Source: Mesotoga infera
Lineage (GTDB): Bacteria; Thermotogota; Thermotogae; Petrotogales; Kosmotogaceae
NCBI GenBank assembly: GCA_011045915.1
Contig: DSBT01000410.1
Location: 1 to 64,000 of the forward strand
DNA: 64,000 nt
Direction of reading: 5' to 3'
Part shown: piece after piece, positions 24,047 through 32,144 of the stretch
Position numbering within the stretch: position 1 is the stretch's first letter
Layout of the letters: the number at the start of each line of letters is the position of its first letter
Program-made: the position numbers and the translations under genes
Notes under the pieces: model-generated
The model's input: the letters and a program-made list of their open reading frames with translations, nothing else
Told to the model about the DNA's origin: nothing
The model's database searches: none

Positions 24047-24889
24047 ATGAAGATTTCTGTGGTAGGCAATGTGAATATTGATCTGAGCGCCTTCATAATC
24101 AACAGCGGCAACAGTGAAGAGAATAGAGTCAGAGAGATAATGTTTTCGGTCGGAGGAAGTGCAGCAAATACGGCGATTATGCTCAACAGACTGAGAAAGA
24201 ATGTCCACTTGCAGGGGGCGGTTGGAAAAGATCAATTCGGAGAGATGGCAATCGAAAGTCTGAAGAGAGAAGGGGTGGACACAGAGCATCTCTCCAGGTT
24301 GGAAGGAAGGACGGGATTCTGCTTTTCTGCAGTGTCTACCGATGGGCAGAGGCACCTCTTTACATATAGAGGCGTGAATGAAGCGAACTATTCGATAGAT
24401 GAATCATCCGACTTCTACCACTTCGGAGGAATAAGGCCCGATCAGATTGAAAGACTTATAAAAAATCTTCGAAGGCCGAGATTCTCTTATAACCCCGGAG
24501 GAATAGTGTCTTTCGAAAGAGGCCCTCAGGTGGCCGAAATCGCTGCTCAGAGCGAAATTCTCTTCGTAAATGAGAGCGAATGGCGCTATCTAGAGAAGTT
24601 AATGACTGTAAAACCGCTGATTATTGTAACGCTGGGAGCTGAAGGAGCGAGAATTGAAAACGGTCCACTCGTCGATGCTTTTGAAGTGAAGGTAGTTGAT
24701 ACGACGGGAGCGGGAGATGCCTTCAACGCAGGCTTCTTACATGGGTATCTCGCTGATAGAAAAGTGAGCAACTGCCTGCAGATCGGGAATCTGCTTGCGG
24801 CTCTCGTTGTATCGAGGCAGGGAGCCAGTCCGGGCTTCATATACAACGATGTACAACGTCTTGCCCGTATATACAATGTATCGTTGTAG
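24047..24889 (+). CDS. PfkB family carbohydrate kinase (ribokinase/fructokinase-like)
   Basis: A 280-residue sugar kinase: VVGNVNIDLSAF at the N terminus, VGGSAANTAIMLNRL (PfkB signature 1) and DTTGAGDAFNAGF (signature 2, with the catalytic Asp and anion hole). It phosphorylates a sugar or nucleoside; which one is not readable. ATG 24047 follows GAGGTAGAAG; the frame extends back over the GH1 start but that part has no kinase homology. It may phosphorylate sugar released by the divergent GH1 enzyme (inference). Confidence 0.88.
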   Translation: MKISVVGNVNIDLSAFIINSGNSEENRVREIMFSVGGSAANTAIMLNRLRKNVHLQGAVGKDQFGEMAIESLKREGVDTEHLSRLEGRTGFCFSAVSTDGQRHLFTYRGVNEANYSIDESSDFYHFGGIRPDQIERLIKNLRRPRFSYNPGGIVSFERGPQVAEIAAQSEILFVNESEWRYLEKLMTVKPLIIVTLGAEGARIENGPLVDAFEVKVVDTTGAGDAFNAGFLHGYLADRKVSNCLQIGNLLAALVVSRQGASPGFIYNDVQRLARIYNVSL

Positions 24890-25010
24890 GAGTAGCAAGA
24901 TACATGGTACATTGTGCGCAAATAATATACACTGTACATAGTGCCCAACACGAATAATAGTACCGATATTGATAATATTTTGCGTGATGAGTATATACAA
25001 AGTAATAGTA
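24838..25010. repeat. TACAA/TGTACA-rich AT-rich patch with inverted repeats
   Basis: Spanning the last codons of the kinase gene and the gap after it are repeated ATACAA (24841, 24871, 24995), GTACAA (24851) and GTACA (24907, 24934) words. Two inverted repeats stand out: TACAACGAT (24842-24850) with ATCGTTGTA (24880-24888), and ACAATGTA (24873-24880) with TACATTGT (24908-24915). No gene is seen. It could be a hairpin-rich 3' region or a cluster of protein-binding sites. Confidence 0.4.
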
Positions 25011-25072
25011 GTATACTAAGTCACTTGTGAAAGAACCAGCTTATATGATAGTATATTTGCAGAGGTGATATC

Positions 25073-26014
25073 ATGCCAGCACAGATTGCATCGGTGGATG
25101 TTGTTAGAATACTGGGTAAGCTCAGTGATGACGGCGGCGAACAGTCCAGTAGAAACAGGTTTATAAAGGAGTACCTCTCAAAATACAAGTCCCCTGAGTC
25201 AATAATAAACGATATCGAAGGGCTTCTCGACGCATATCCCACTTTTGAAGGTGATTCGGAGAGCCTTGCGAGAGCCTTTGCCGATCTAGTAAATAGGCTT
25301 GCAGAGATTTCGGGTTTCTCGGTTGATTACGTAAAGTACTCTGGAAGAGACAAGATCACAGGAGTCTGGAAAGTTGGAGAAGACGTTCAGATTAGGGTCG
25401 CGGCGATTATCTGCACAAGTTTCGAGGAGGCCAAGGGTGTCGCGAGAAATGCCTTGCTGATTCTGCCTGAAGCAATCGATCTCGGGAGGCCTTTCGTCAC
25501 TGTTGAACGCCTTGGAAAGCTATTCTCAATGATAGAACAGATAGAGCTTCCGGTGAGTTCGATAGCGTCGATACTCGTTACAGACGATAATTACGACAAG
25601 AGGATTTCTTCTTTTATGGAACTCATGTTTCTCGCTTTCAAAAAGGAACTCGCTCGAAAGCCTCAAATGTCACTCCAAAAGGAATGGACTAAAGACGAAC
25701 TGCAGGATTTCATTATGCAGCGGTTGAAGCTTCCCACGATAGGGATGCTATTTTCCCTGCTCGATTCTCCCATGGTAGGAGAAGAACTCGTGGAGAATAT
25801 AAACGAATTTCTTAAGGAAAATGAAAGTGAACTCGTGAAGGGACCTATGGCGCTTGGGGCAATTATGGGTGCCCTTTCAAAACACTATTCCGGTATCAAA
25901 GAAGAGCTTGTATTGAGAGAGGGAAAGAAGTACAGTCTGGCAGAAAAATACAGACCTGTGATCTCGGAAATCAAAACACGCTTCGAAAGCGGAAAACAGA
26001 CAGTAACTCGATAA
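25073..26014 (+). CDS. Hypothetical protein, 313 residues, upstream of the Xer/dif locus
   Basis: Not recognised. It appears soluble and largely helical, with no membrane segment, signal peptide or clear nucleotide-binding or catalytic motif. A mixed central region (GVWKVGEDVQIRVAAIICTS) may be a small alpha/beta fold, and the remainder is acidic and helical. ATG follows AGAGGTGATATC. It precedes the dif-like palindrome and the recombinase gene on the same strand with a 214-base gap. Codon use matches the window, so it is a resident gene; perhaps specific to Thermotogota. Confidence 0.75.
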   Translation: MPAQIASVDVVRILGKLSDDGGEQSSRNRFIKEYLSKYKSPESIINDIEGLLDAYPTFEGDSESLARAFADLVNRLAEISGFSVDYVKYSGRDKITGVWKVGEDVQIRVAAIICTSFEEAKGVARNALLILPEAIDLGRPFVTVERLGKLFSMIEQIELPVSSIASILVTDDNYDKRISSFMELMFLAFKKELARKPQMSLQKEWTKDELQDFIMQRLKLPTIGMLFSLLDSPMVGEELVENINEFLKENESELVKGPMALGAIMGALSKHYSGIKEELVLREGKKYSLAEKYRPVISEIKTRFESGKQTVTR

Positions 26015-26171: not shown

Positions 26172-26207
26172 AAATATGAGTCATAATGACTATTATGACT
26201 CATATTT
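26172..26207. other. dif-like recombination site (36-bp perfect inverted repeat)
   Basis: Two perfect 16-base arms (26172-26187 and 26192-26207) flank GACT. The inner 28 bases (26176-26203) have the layout of a dif site: an 11-base arm ending CATAA, a 6-base centre TGACTA, and an 11-base arm beginning TTATG. The central 16 bases differ from E. coli dif (CATAATGTATATTATG) at only two or three positions. The site lies 21 bases upstream of a tyrosine recombinase gene, as in the single-recombinase XerS and XerH systems. Full symmetry fits one protein binding both arms. A plain operator or an mRNA hairpin remains possible. Confidence 0.7.
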
Positions 26208-26228: not shown

Positions 26229-27128
26229 ATGAATTTCAACGAATCCATTGAGAGGTTCAAGGAGAACATGGAGTTTGTCAGGAATATGTCTTCCAATACT
26301 ATTGGCGCATATCTTTCCGATCTCCGCCATTTCGAATGCTTCCTCAGCAATCACGATGTCGACTACACCGAAGTGAAGAGAAGAGACATCGAGCTGTTCG
26401 TGAAAGAGTATTCGCAGGGGAAGTATTCCAAAAAGAGGCCTTCGGCAACAACTGTAGCGAGAAATCTTTCTACAATCAGATCCTTTTACACGTTCCTATA
26501 CATTAGCGGAATAGTGGGCAAGGTTCCTACTGAACTTATAAAGAATCCCAAGACGCGGCGCAGGATCCCAGACTATATTAGCCATGATGAAGTCATGGAG
26601 ATTCTCTCCTCTTTCAGGGAAACGAATCTCGGTAAGAGGAATAGAGCCATTGTAGCAACGATGTACTTCTGCGGGCTGAGGGTCAGTGAAGTATGTAAGC
26701 TCAGACTTGGCGATCTGCGTCTGGGAAGCTCTCCCGCAGTCAGGGTTATGAGTGGAAAGGGAAACCGTGACAGGGAGGTCCCGATGAATGACCAGGTTCT
26801 TTCCATCTTGAGAGATTATCTCTCAATAAGAAAGGACTTTCCTGTTGATGAGTTCGAAGATCACGTCTTCGTTGGAACTCGTGGGGAGCCAATGGCAAGA
26901 AACGTAATTCCCAAAGTGCTAAATACACAAGTAAAAGTAGTATATCCAGACAAAAGAATTCATCCTCATTTATTCAGGCATAGTTTTGCAACACAACTCT
27001 TACAAAAAGGTGCAAGTATAAAAACTGTACAAGAATTATTAGGTCATGCAAATTTATCTACTACAAGTATATACTTACATATTACTGATAGAGAGAAACG
27101 AGCGGCGGTACAATTGTTATCAGATTAA
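26229..27128 (+). CDS. Xer-type tyrosine recombinase (XerC/XerD-like)
   Basis: A 299-residue recombinase with an N-terminal SAM-like core-binding domain (1-100) and a catalytic domain holding Arg151 (CGLRVSEV), Lys177 (GKGNRDR), His247-x-x-Arg250 (HLFRHSFA), His273 (GHANLSTT) and Tyr282 (SIYLH). This is the complete set for site-specific cleavage and strand exchange. ATG 26229 follows GGGGG with 6-base spacing; a TTG at 26223 is in frame. The likely job is chromosome dimer resolution at the adjacent dif-like site. From about 26914 the codons change sharply: 7 of the last 10 Leu codons are TTA, against none of about 17 before. Confidence 0.9.
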   Translation: MNFNESIERFKENMEFVRNMSSNTIGAYLSDLRHFECFLSNHDVDYTEVKRRDIELFVKEYSQGKYSKKRPSATTVARNLSTIRSFYTFLYISGIVGKVPTELIKNPKTRRRIPDYISHDEVMEILSSFRETNLGKRNRAIVATMYFCGLRVSEVCKLRLGDLRLGSSPAVRVMSGKGNRDREVPMNDQVLSILRDYLSIRKDFPVDEFEDHVFVGTRGEPMARNVIPKVLNTQVKVVYPDKRIHPHLFRHSFATQLLQKGASIKTVQELLGHANLSTTSIYLHITDREKRAAVQLLSD

Positions 27129-27157
27129 TGTACAAGTATAAATTGCGGAGATTCTAA
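26914..27157. other. AT-rich, codon-atypical patch at the 3' end of xer
   Basis: The last 71 codons of xer and the gap after it use TTA, GTA, CAA, ACA and CAT codons and are visibly richer in A+T than the first 690 bases of the same gene. GTACAA occurs at 27027, 27108 and 27130. The protein motifs stay intact, so the segment may have been exchanged from an AT-rich homologue. Confidence 0.6.
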
Positions 27158-27910
27158 ATGATTGATATACACAATCACACAACTTTTTCAGACGGAAGGA
27201 ATTCTGTGGAGCAGGTAATACGGTCAGCAGTAGAAGCAGGACTACGGGTCATAGGTATTTCTGATCATTTCGATCCCTATGTCTGTCAGGAAGTCTGTCT
27301 CCAAGCTGAACAGATCATCGGCTATCTGAAGGAAATAAGACGTTTCGAAGGAGAATTTCCAATCAAAATCCTTGCGGGTCTTGAACTCGGGCTGCAGTCT
27401 GAAGGAATTCTCTGGCCCGGGGAGGAGATGGATTACTACATCTACTCAGTTCACACTGTCCCTGGTAAGCCTGATCTGAAGAGTCTCGAAGACCCGTGGG
27501 AGATCTACCTTAAAGAAGCTATTCTAGCCGTCGATCTCATAGATAGGCCGGGCTTCTTTGGACACCTGGATTTTTTGAGGAGACACATTCCGCATGGAAG
27601 GCCGCCGAAACCCGGACCCCTGATTGATCGTCTTCTCATGAAGTTGGCTTCGAATCATGTTGGACTAGAAGTGAACACTTCAGGCTGGATGTATGGACTT
27701 GGAGATCCATCGCCCCAGTCGTGGGTAATAGAAAGGTATCTCGAACTGGGTGGCAATCTATTGACAATAGGATCTGACTCTCACAGAGCATTGCAGGTCG
27801 GTAAATACAGCGATCAAGCCGTTTCATTGTTAAGGGGAATTGGAGTGGAAGAGGTATTCTATTGCGAGAAAGGCAGTTACGTACCTTTCAGCATACTGGG
27901 GGAAGAATGA
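27158..27910 (+). CDS. PHP-domain metal-dependent phosphoesterase (first paralogue)
   Basis: A 250-residue PHP domain: IDIHNHTTFSDG (metal-binding HxH), GISDHFDPY, GLELGLQ, YYIYSVH, GHLDFLRR and TIGSDSHRA near the C terminus, covering the expected metal ligands. Relatives include histidinol phosphatase (HisK) and other phosphoesterases; no his genes are nearby, so the substrate is unknown. GCGGAG precedes the ATG. The stop overlaps the next start as ATGA. A clear paralogue of equal length lies in the opposite orientation at 31392-32144. Confidence 0.85.
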   Translation: MIDIHNHTTFSDGRNSVEQVIRSAVEAGLRVIGISDHFDPYVCQEVCLQAEQIIGYLKEIRRFEGEFPIKILAGLELGLQSEGILWPGEEMDYYIYSVHTVPGKPDLKSLEDPWEIYLKEAILAVDLIDRPGFFGHLDFLRRHIPHGRPPKPGPLIDRLLMKLASNHVGLEVNTSGWMYGLGDPSPQSWVIERYLELGGNLLTIGSDSHRALQVGKYSDQAVSLLRGIGVEEVFYCEKGSYVPFSILGEE

Positions 27911-29880: not shown

Positions 29881-31395
29881 ATGACGGCAAGCACAGCAAG
29901 AAGCACGGCTCTCTTTGCTATAGCAACCATGTTATCAAGGATAACGGGTCTCGCCAGAGACTCTCTATTTGCAAACTACTTCGGTACGTCAGCTCAGTAT
30001 GATGCCTATCTTGTTGCAATCATGATCCCCTTCTTTCTAAGGAAGATCTTTGCCGATGGAGCTATGACGATGGCCTTTGTTCCTCTCTTCAACGAAAAGC
30101 TTAAGAACTCCGCTAAGAGGGCTTTTATATTTGCCTCAACAGTGCTGGTATTCGTTTTAATCGTTTCCGGATCGATTTCGGCGGGGGGGATGGTTTTCTC
30201 CGAAGGGGTTGCCTCAGTCTTCGCCGGCGGCTTCGATGAGGCTGCTCTTGAGCTGACATCAAGACTCATCAGAATCTCCTTCCCCTTTATTATCCTTGTT
30301 TCTCTATGGGCTGTCTACTGCGGAGTCCTGAATAGTCTCGATGCCTTCTTCATCGCGGCGATAACTCCCATGTTCATCAACCTTTCGACGATTGCGGGTA
30401 TTCTGCTTTCAGCCAGGTTTTCTCCTCCGATCCTTGGACCCACTATTGGCTTTCTGGCTGGAGGAGCGATACAGCTTCTTGTTGTAGTACTGGCAGCCCG
30501 ATCGAAAGGCTTTGTCTTCAAGCCGGGATATAACAAGAGCGATGTGAAGGAATTCCTTCTTCTCTTTCTGTTCTCGGCTATATCTCCGGCAATAAACGAG
30601 ATCAATTCCTTTGTTGATATACGCGTCTCAACCGAACTGGGAAGAGGGGCCGTCTCCAGCCTTGGTTACGCTCAGCGGCTCTATCAGCTTCCTCTTGGTG
30701 TGTTTGCCATTGCCGTGGCAACTGTGGCTCTTCCGAAGCTTTCAAAGCTGACTTCCGCAGATTCGAAGGATAGGTTCAGAAAATCTCTGTGGGATTCTCT
30801 TACAGTGCTTGCCTTCCTGATAATTCCTTCTACTCTTGGGCTGCTCGTTTTGGGTGAAGGCATAGTCCGTCTTCTCTTCGAAAGGGGCTCATTTACGCCT
30901 GGCGATACTGCAATGACCACATCGCTGCTTTACGGTTACACTCTGGGACTGCCTTTCTATGGATCCTATGGTGTTCTATCGAGAGCCTATTACGCCAGAA
31001 AGAGTCCCAAAACACCCACAATAATCTCTGCGATTATGGTGAGCGTAAATGTTGTTCTTGACATCGTCCTCGGCTTCACAATAGGGCCTCTGGGCGTAGC
31101 GCTGGCTACAAGCGCGGCAGGGATAGTGGGGACCGTCACAGTCTCTGCTGCACTTCTGAGATGGACGGGATACGAAAAAGAGAACCTTTTTGAAATAGTC
31201 AAAGTGATTCTTGCATCTCTGGTCATGTCTGCTTTGATGCTCCTGGGTAGAATCTTCTTCGGTACCGGAAACATTTCCACTCTTGTCACACTCGTATCTG
31301 GAATAGGGGTGTACTTTCTAATGGCCAGAGCCTTTGGCCTGGGAAACCTGTTCAAGCTGAAGGATTTGCTTGGCAAGAACAAGAGAGGCAATTAG
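29881..31395 (+). CDS. murJ: Lipid II flippase MurJ (MviN family)
   Basis: A 504-residue membrane protein with about 14 transmembrane segments. The family start is TALFAIATMLSRITGLARDSLFANYFG, followed by MIPFFLRKIFADGAMTMAFVPLF and GAVSSLGYAQRLYQLPLGVFAIA. It moves lipid-linked peptidoglycan precursor across the cytoplasmic membrane. ATG 29881 follows GTGGAGGTCTCT. Its TAG stop interlocks with the stop of the convergent PHP gene over four bases. Confidence 0.93.
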   Translation: MTASTARSTALFAIATMLSRITGLARDSLFANYFGTSAQYDAYLVAIMIPFFLRKIFADGAMTMAFVPLFNEKLKNSAKRAFIFASTVLVFVLIVSGSISAGGMVFSEGVASVFAGGFDEAALELTSRLIRISFPFIILVSLWAVYCGVLNSLDAFFIAAITPMFINLSTIAGILLSARFSPPILGPTIGFLAGGAIQLLVVVLAARSKGFVFKPGYNKSDVKEFLLLFLFSAISPAINEINSFVDIRVSTELGRGAVSSLGYAQRLYQLPLGVFAIAVATVALPKLSKLTSADSKDRFRKSLWDSLTVLAFLIIPSTLGLLVLGEGIVRLLFERGSFTPGDTAMTTSLLYGYTLGLPFYGSYGVLSRAYYARKSPKTPTIISAIMVSVNVVLDIVLGFTIGPLGVALATSAAGIVGTVTVSAALLRWTGYEKENLFEIVKVILASLVMSALMLLGRIFFGTGNISTLVTLVSGIGVYFLMARAFGLGNLFKLKDLLGKNKRGN

Positions 31396-32144
31396 CAGTC
31401 GTCAATCTGAAATGGCACATAATTCATTTTTTCACAGTAGAAGATCTCTCTGATCCCGATTTCTCTCAGCAGCAATATGGCATCTCCAATGTGGCTGCCG
31501 ACATCTTCTCTTCGATGAGAATCTGAACCGATAGTGATCAGTCTGCCTCCATGTGAGAGGTATCTCTCAATTATCCATCTCTGGGGACTTGGCTCTCTAT
31601 ATGGATAACGCCAGCCGGAAGTGTTAATCTCAATCCCGATGCTGGTCCTTATCAGCCTCTTCAACAGCTCGTTCAGAAGAGTTTCGTTGTCCAGAGGTCT
31701 GTGTTCAGGAATGTATCTTCGAAGGAAATCGATGTGGCCGAAGAAGCCGGGTCCCTTAACATCGTAAATCGCCTCAATTGCCTCTTCTAGATACAGCGTC
31801 CAAACATTTTCTACATCTAGGTTTTTTGCTCCCGGTATTCCGTGCACGGAGTATATGAAATAGTCGAAATCTCCTTCTGGAGGTATCCTGGCACACGACT
31901 GCAGACCCACCTCAAGTCCTGAGAGGATCTTTGCTGTTGAGTTGTCCTTCAGCCGGGAGAGATTCCTCAAATAGCCTTTGAGATCTCTAAGTCTATAATT
32001 GAACGAAAGGGAAGTGTCCAGATCATCGTGATCTGAGATCCCGACCACCTTCAGACCCTTAATGCAAGCTTCCTCAACAATCTCCTCCATTGGTGTACGA
32101 CTGTCTGGTGAAAAGGAACTGTGATTGTGAAGATCTACAGGCAC
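31392..32144 (-). CDS. PHP-domain metal-dependent phosphoesterase (second paralogue)
   Basis: A 250-residue PHP protein: VDLHNHSSFSPDSRTP, VVGISDHDD, GLEVGLQSC, YFIYSVHGIPG, GHIDFLRRYIP and TIGSDSHRRE. It aligns end to end with the protein at 27158-27910 and shares the terminal FYCEK-x-x-YVPF, so the two arose by duplication. GTG start just after the stop of the upstream small gene, in weak ribosome-site context. Substrate unknown. Confidence 0.84.
   Translation of the reverse strand: MPVDLHNHSSFSPDSRTPMEEIVEEACIKGLKVVGISDHDDLDTSLSFNYRLRDLKGYLRNLSRLKDNSTAKILSGLEVGLQSCARIPPEGDFDYFIYSVHGIPGAKNLDVENVWTLYLEEAIEAIYDVKGPGFFGHIDFLRRYIPEHRPLDNETLLNELLKRLIRTSIGIEINTSGWRYPYREPSPQRWIIERYLSHGGRLITIGSDSHRREDVGSHIGDAILLLREIGIREIFYCEKMNYVPFQIDDC

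Follow-up and report, generated by a model that had tools for sequence, protein, structure and literature searches.

The window, the whole stretch of 64,000 nucleotides of Mesotoga infera DNA analysed here, carries the gene of an Xer-type tyrosine recombinase (xer) and, just upstream of it, a site like dif, the chromosome-separation site normally controlled by FtsK. A second gene, called gene X here, lies on the other side of the site, and an array of short AT-rich words is found at each end of the group. The arrays, gene X, dif and xer make up a module that spans 2.4 kb, with the following features.

about 24830-25060, no strand: left site array (zone 1), AT-rich and TpA-rich, covering the final ~13 codons of a PfkB-type kinase gene plus the spacer that precedes gene X
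24840, 24850, 24870, 24994 (+), 25009 (-), 25012 (+) and 25049 (-): TRTACWA cores of the left array
25073-26014, + strand: gene X, 313 aa, a candidate array-binding protein
26176-26203, no strand: dif-like site, ATGAGTCATAA TGACTA TTATGACTCAT, 11+6+11, 25 bp upstream of the xer start
26229-27128, + strand: xer, 299 aa, PF00589 (E 3e-41) with an N-terminal PF02899, the sole Phage_integrase-family match in the genome
26914-27157, no strand: right site array (zone 2), inside xer codons 229-299 and the downstream gap
26938 (-), 27026 (+) and 27129 (+): TRTACWA cores of the right array
26939, 27015, 27066-27075 and 27135: AGTATA/ATATAC words of the right array

The xer translation contains the catalytic blocks HPHLFRHS, LLGHANL and SIYLH, and thus the R...HxxR...H...Y arrangement of an Xer tyrosine recombinase. 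Codon usage within this gene changes abruptly. In codons 1-228, TTA is used for 0 of 17 Leu, GTA for 4 of 19 Val and CAA for 0 of 2 Gln; in codons 229-299, these become 7 of 10, 5 of 6 and 5 of 5, respectively. The counts in the original prediction were exact on recount, and its placement of a sharp boundary near codon 229 was confirmed by GC3, which falls from 0.53 before that codon to 0.14 across the remaining 71. The AT-rich composition had also been said to continue through the intergenic gap. The low-GC stretch does cross the 29-bp gap, and even reaches the beginning of the next gene.

The GC3 difference of the xer 3' part (-0.39) is the most extreme of 51 window genes (mean -0.016, sd 0.084). 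xer again has the most extreme 3' drop among 255 genes sampled in the Mesotoga genome G001 (-0.39) and among 118 sampled in G007 (-0.37), where the standard deviation across the window and the two genome samples is 0.07-0.08. Because this is the largest GC3 drop among the genes sampled, the switch is neither chance nor a general 3'-end effect, and AT drift at gene 3' ends was rejected on the rank of xer in all three samples. No Rfam structured RNA was found in the AT-rich stretch, with a chance-level match elsewhere only. Further genomic copies of the xer 3' end are likewise absent, save for short chance matches.

The genus Mesotoga has nine other sequenced species, and eight Mesotoga genomes with a complete xer were compared. 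The switch occurs at the same codon in all eight and in two genomes of the related genus g2, and the GC3 of the 3' stretch in the eight Mesotoga is 0.12-0.25 compared to about 0.5 elsewhere in xer. The xer genes of three Kosmotoga genomes have no codon switch. Two readings had been offered for the switch: replacement of the xer 3' end by an AT-rich homologue, or selection for some other role of the DNA, binding sites among them. The former did not survive the comparison and the latter did. Split trees of codons 1-228 and 229-end give no supported conflict, with the C-part tree weakly resolved, and the orthologues of the congeners and of g2 have the same codon pattern, so no recent replacement took place. 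Though its boundary at codon ~229 is abrupt, replacement is therefore very improbable, as a twin array lies in unrelated DNA across dif and a very old event would still require selection to hold GC3 low.

Distant species show differences of 0.5-0.8 at fourfold sites of the stretch while GC3 remains low, and thus the composition has been maintained during sequence turnover. Counting against a reading of embedded sites, comparisons of close species reveal no reduction of synonymous divergence here. Over the eight Mesotoga, Val is encoded by GTA 40 times and GTT 2 times in the stretch, and by GTA 26 times and GTT 45 times in the remaining xer. The 40:2 ratio points to more than AT content alone.

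The left zone was found by ranking 246-bp windows on TpA ratio and AT content. It has the top TpA ratio among AT-rich windows, and both zones are high in TpA. In Mesotoga, there is strong overlap between the words enriched in the left zone (ATATAC, AGTATA, ATACAA, TATACA, ATACTA) and the right-zone words. Seven 6-mers were learned solely from Mesotoga left zones and scanned in 250-bp windows; the left zone is the densest such window for the learned words in the 64 kb. For these words, the two arrays hold the top two places in G001 (570 kb scanned), G007 (579 kb) and the Kosmotoga genome G012 (631 kb), the last of which played no part in word learning. Across the xer loci of 14 Kosmotogaceae genomes from five genera, they are likewise among the best windows, except that the left zone is missing at a contig end in G008, truncated by one in G014 and level with an intervening window in G015. 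In the assembly of G002 (locus L015 on contig C73), a run of N crosses the right array and gene X is cut at the end of another contig, which leaves the module unassembled in that genome.

The selection half of the original prediction was examined against synonymous-codon nulls. Left-array words match the right array 7-10 times in seven Mesotoga and 5 times in the eighth (G007). Genome codon usage predicts 0.5-0.8 matches (p<=0.0025, eight Mesotoga), and 1.8-2.8 are expected when the GC3 class of each codon is fixed (p 0.0005-0.018; G007 p 0.11). With GC3 class fixed, the excess is found in seven of the eight Mesotoga and in both g2 genomes (p 0.0005-0.018). The excess over shuffles of the stretch's own codons is moderate (p 0.007-0.41), giving weak support for an ordering of the sites beyond codon choice. 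Since the genomes are related, tests across them are not independent.

An expectation-maximisation motif search of the left zones of nine genomes and three non-coding right zones returned TAGTATRTACAA, with the core TRTACAA; the site core is given here as TRTACWA. The motif is short and degenerate. The window has 23 TRTACWA in its 64 kb: 7 are in the left array and 3 in the right, while gene X, the dif region and the body of xer have none. AT-matched windows elsewhere (n=1189) have a mean of 0.17, and none reaches 4. Right zones that were kept out of the motif search (Mesotoga, g2 and g5) contain 1-6, and there is a single core in the right arrays of G007 and G011 and in the left array of G013. 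When a motif from Kosmotoga arrays alone was tried on the coding stretches, the p-values were marginal; the Mesotoga left-array words and the combined motif were clearer than this Kosmotoga-only motif.

The codon bias of xer is very probably caused by a conserved array of DNA sites. The codon switch would be the trace, in coding sequence, of a DNA element. In Mesotoga and g2, the right array lies within the last ~71 xer codons, where synonymous positions (GTA, CAA, TTA, ATA) would be picked for the sites. Codon choice thus appears to serve the sites and, less surely, so does codon order. Were AT-richness itself what matters, through melting, silencer coating or local mutation bias, the words would be a by-product; the high TpA ratios of both zones and the word excess retained by own-codon shuffles would fit. 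However, the GTA:GTT ratio, the excess that persists with GC3 class fixed and the AT-matched windows without the sites make this a quite improbable account.

The order left array, gene X, dif, xer, right array is kept in every Kosmotogaceae locus with enough flank, contig ends excepted. The outer neighbours of the module vary between genera (14 loci). Each array is ~250 bp long; the left one is centred about 1.2 kb from dif and the right one about 0.8-1.0 kb from it. In Kosmotoga, the right array is non-coding and lies directly past the xer stop, with a GC content of 0.19-0.36 per 75 bp.

A dif-like palindrome is found at the same place in all Kosmotogaceae. It has the 11-bp inverted arms and 6-bp centre of dif, with one per chromosome, and is single-copy at <=3 mismatches in the four Mesotoga with this form (G000, G001, G003, G009) and in three Kosmotoga. 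The Kosmotoga dif has CATAATGTATATTA in common with E. coli dif (sequence from PMC3025954). In the complete genomes G001 and G012, dif lies within about 70-180 kb of the strand-composition switch and not at it. dnaA was rejected as an origin opposite dif: the distance between it and xer is 8-28% of the chromosome, and the strand composition points to genome rearrangements. Given a position near the strand-composition switch and not opposite dnaA, location of dif at the chromosome terminus is plausible, not proved.

Gene X is full-length in 16 of 17 Kosmotogaceae genomes, two of these being cut by contig ends. The genome that lacks it (G006) also lacks xer. The full-length protein is known only in Kosmotogaceae, always beside dif; it is absent from plasmid and phage collections and has no match in Pfam, NCBIfam or PDB sequences. 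In its AF2 model (mean pLDDT 83.9), a C-terminal winged-helix domain (residues ~205-310) is preceded by a restriction-endonuclease-like alpha/beta region. The best Foldseek matches of the winged helix are PadR, MarR and the plasmid protein TubR (weak, E 0.03-0.05). The match to Bacillus cereus TubR has a probability of 1.00 and a TM of 0.58 on the target, at 23% identity and E 0.05. The preceding region has weak fold matches to FokI/HindIII (E 0.03-0.2), and on reading of the X alignment, the usual PD-(D/E)XK acids are not evident.

A protein of ~235 aa in Petrotogaceae (G018, G020-G022, G024, G025, G027-G029, G031, G033, G034; loci L193-L200) has a C-terminus similar to the winged-helix portion of X. 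These X-like proteins are encoded away from xer in the genomes that were compared, and no array was seen beside them, which weighs against the module reading given below.

E. coli FtsK has two roles here, bringing the dif sites together and activating XerD (PMC2958812). That paper leaves unanswered how Xer is restricted to dimers without FtsK in archaea. FtsK_SpoIIIE is over the cut-off in 0 of 17 Kosmotogaceae genomes. Across 61 Thermotogota genomes there is one match over the cut-off, short and partial, in another family; among the controls, E. coli and B. subtilis are positive and Thermotoga maritima is negative. With no clear FtsK, the Kosmotogaceae Xer would lack the FtsK activation seen with E. 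coli XerCD. No description of dif, Xer or FtsK of Thermotogae was found in the open-access papers searched. In Kosmotogaceae, conserved and paired arrays are linked to gene X and dif in genomes without a clear FtsK.

Overall, these observations are best explained by a conserved module in which the codon bias arises from embedded sites, X binds the arrays and Xer is controlled at dif, and this is probably correct as a whole. Its parts differ in strength. The winged-helix protein X may well bind the left and right arrays, for which the chances appear about even. That X and the arrays have an accessory role in Xer recombination or terminus handling is somewhat less certain. From two arrays astride dif, a DNA-binding protein encoded between them and the lack of FtsK, we infer that X could shape the dif region and gate Xer. 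X on the paired arrays would fold or pair the dif region and, in so doing, gate Xer at dif. X and the arrays would then do part of the job of E. coli FtsK, or that of PepA/ArgR with the accessory sequences at cer. In its fullest form, which we put forward only tentatively, Kosmotogaceae control the resolution of chromosome dimers without FtsK: X on the two arrays would form a topological complex that limits their single Xer to paired dif, with one array kept in xer by codon choice.

Several known systems share features with the module. In the plasmid cer/psi systems (PepA, ArgR/ArcA), accessory DNA by the Xer core is bound by a DNA-binding protein that controls recombination (PMC5357621). The Kosmotogaceae arrays differ in that they flank a chromosomal site at a distance of about 1 kb, and the candidate protein is encoded within the module. 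By analogy, the module may work like a cer/psi-type accessory complex. XerS/difSL of streptococci and lactococci also has a single recombinase gene immediately by its site (PMC5357621, PMC2731167). However, XerS is FtsK-dependent and difSL is atypical (PMC5357621, PMC2958812), whereas the Kosmotogaceae dif has the ordinary 11+6+11 form and a clear FtsK is missing. Archaeal XerA/dif is alike in having a single Xer, no FtsK homologue and a dif that is sometimes near xerA; the relevant passages of PMC2958812 and PMC5357621 describe no flanking arrays with a dedicated protein. Compared with this FtsK-free type, the module has arrays and a protein in addition.

TubZRC resembles the module in that a winged-helix protein, in X a predicted one, is encoded beside clusters of short repeats, and the tubC repeats are split into blocks (PMC5016525). 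The arrays could accordingly be a centromere-like or terminus-anchoring site, involved in partition or nucleoid organisation, that incidentally contains dif, with X a TubR/ParR-like or MatP-like binder. The fold match to TubR (probability 1.00, but E 0.05) and the distance of about 70-180 kb between dif and the strand-composition switch are in keeping with this. Unlike TubZRC, the module is chromosomal, and dif and xer lie between its repeat blocks. Against this reading, no tubZ GTPase gene adjoins X in 14 loci, with neighbours judged from their sequences; no parA adjoins X either, and full-length X is absent from plasmid and phage collections. Unlike matS sites of MatP, the dense arrays are confined to the flanks of dif-xer and are not spread over the terminus (570-631 kb samples). 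A centromere-like or anchoring site is improbable.

A somewhat better case, though still an unlikely one, can be made for the arrays as operators, through which X or another regulator controls transcription of gene X, xer and downstream genes with no role in recombination. The likely promoter of gene X lies at the end of the left array, the winged helix of X is PadR/MarR-like, and TubR and similar plasmid proteins that bind centromeres double as repressors of their own operons (PMC5016525). Yet the right array is at the 3' end of xer, an odd spot for an xer operator, and it persists though the downstream gene differs among Mesotoga, g2, Kosmotoga and g5. Because the downstream genes differ in this way, the promoter of the downstream PHP-domain gene is also unlikely as the sole cause of the right array.

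Control of Xer at dif by X and the arrays would bear on how Xer recombination stays confined to chromosome dimers without FtsK in Thermotogota and archaea. The arrays may belong to an unrecognised control system for dif in a family without a clear FtsK. As a candidate protein, putative sites and the target site all lie within 2.4 kb, the question can be tested with one protein and one DNA fragment. The xer gene is, moreover, a clear example of a conserved gene whose abrupt shift in codon usage reflects embedded DNA sites and not gene transfer.

The PHP-domain gene (27158-27910, + strand) is directly 3' of xer in all Mesotoga loci examined. A second, similar PHP-domain protein is encoded 4 kb away on the opposite strand (31392-32144, - strand).

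In another family of Thermotogota, f8 (G049, G043, G053; loci L206-L208), a dif-like palindrome, ATGCATGATAA ... TTATCATGCAT, lies just upstream of xer, and there is no gene X. In G049 of this family, a few similar words occur about 3.1 kb upstream and 1.7 kb downstream, which counts against the proposed module.

The extra dif-like site of G007 is part of an inserted element of ~3.13 kb, present in two tandem copies (L212:6430-12730; G007:C1 about 847,430-853,730) that interrupt an apparent cation-antiporter operon. Each copy encodes a 123-aa HTH protein and a 443-aa protein. The inter-copy junction is dif-like, ATGAGTCATAA TTGTTA TTATGAATCAT, both outer ends carry TTGTTATTATGAA, and no TRTACWA array is present at the element. 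Judged from its sequence, it looks like a mobile element that exploits the host Xer, and its dif-like junctions would give indirect support for recombination of dif by Xer.
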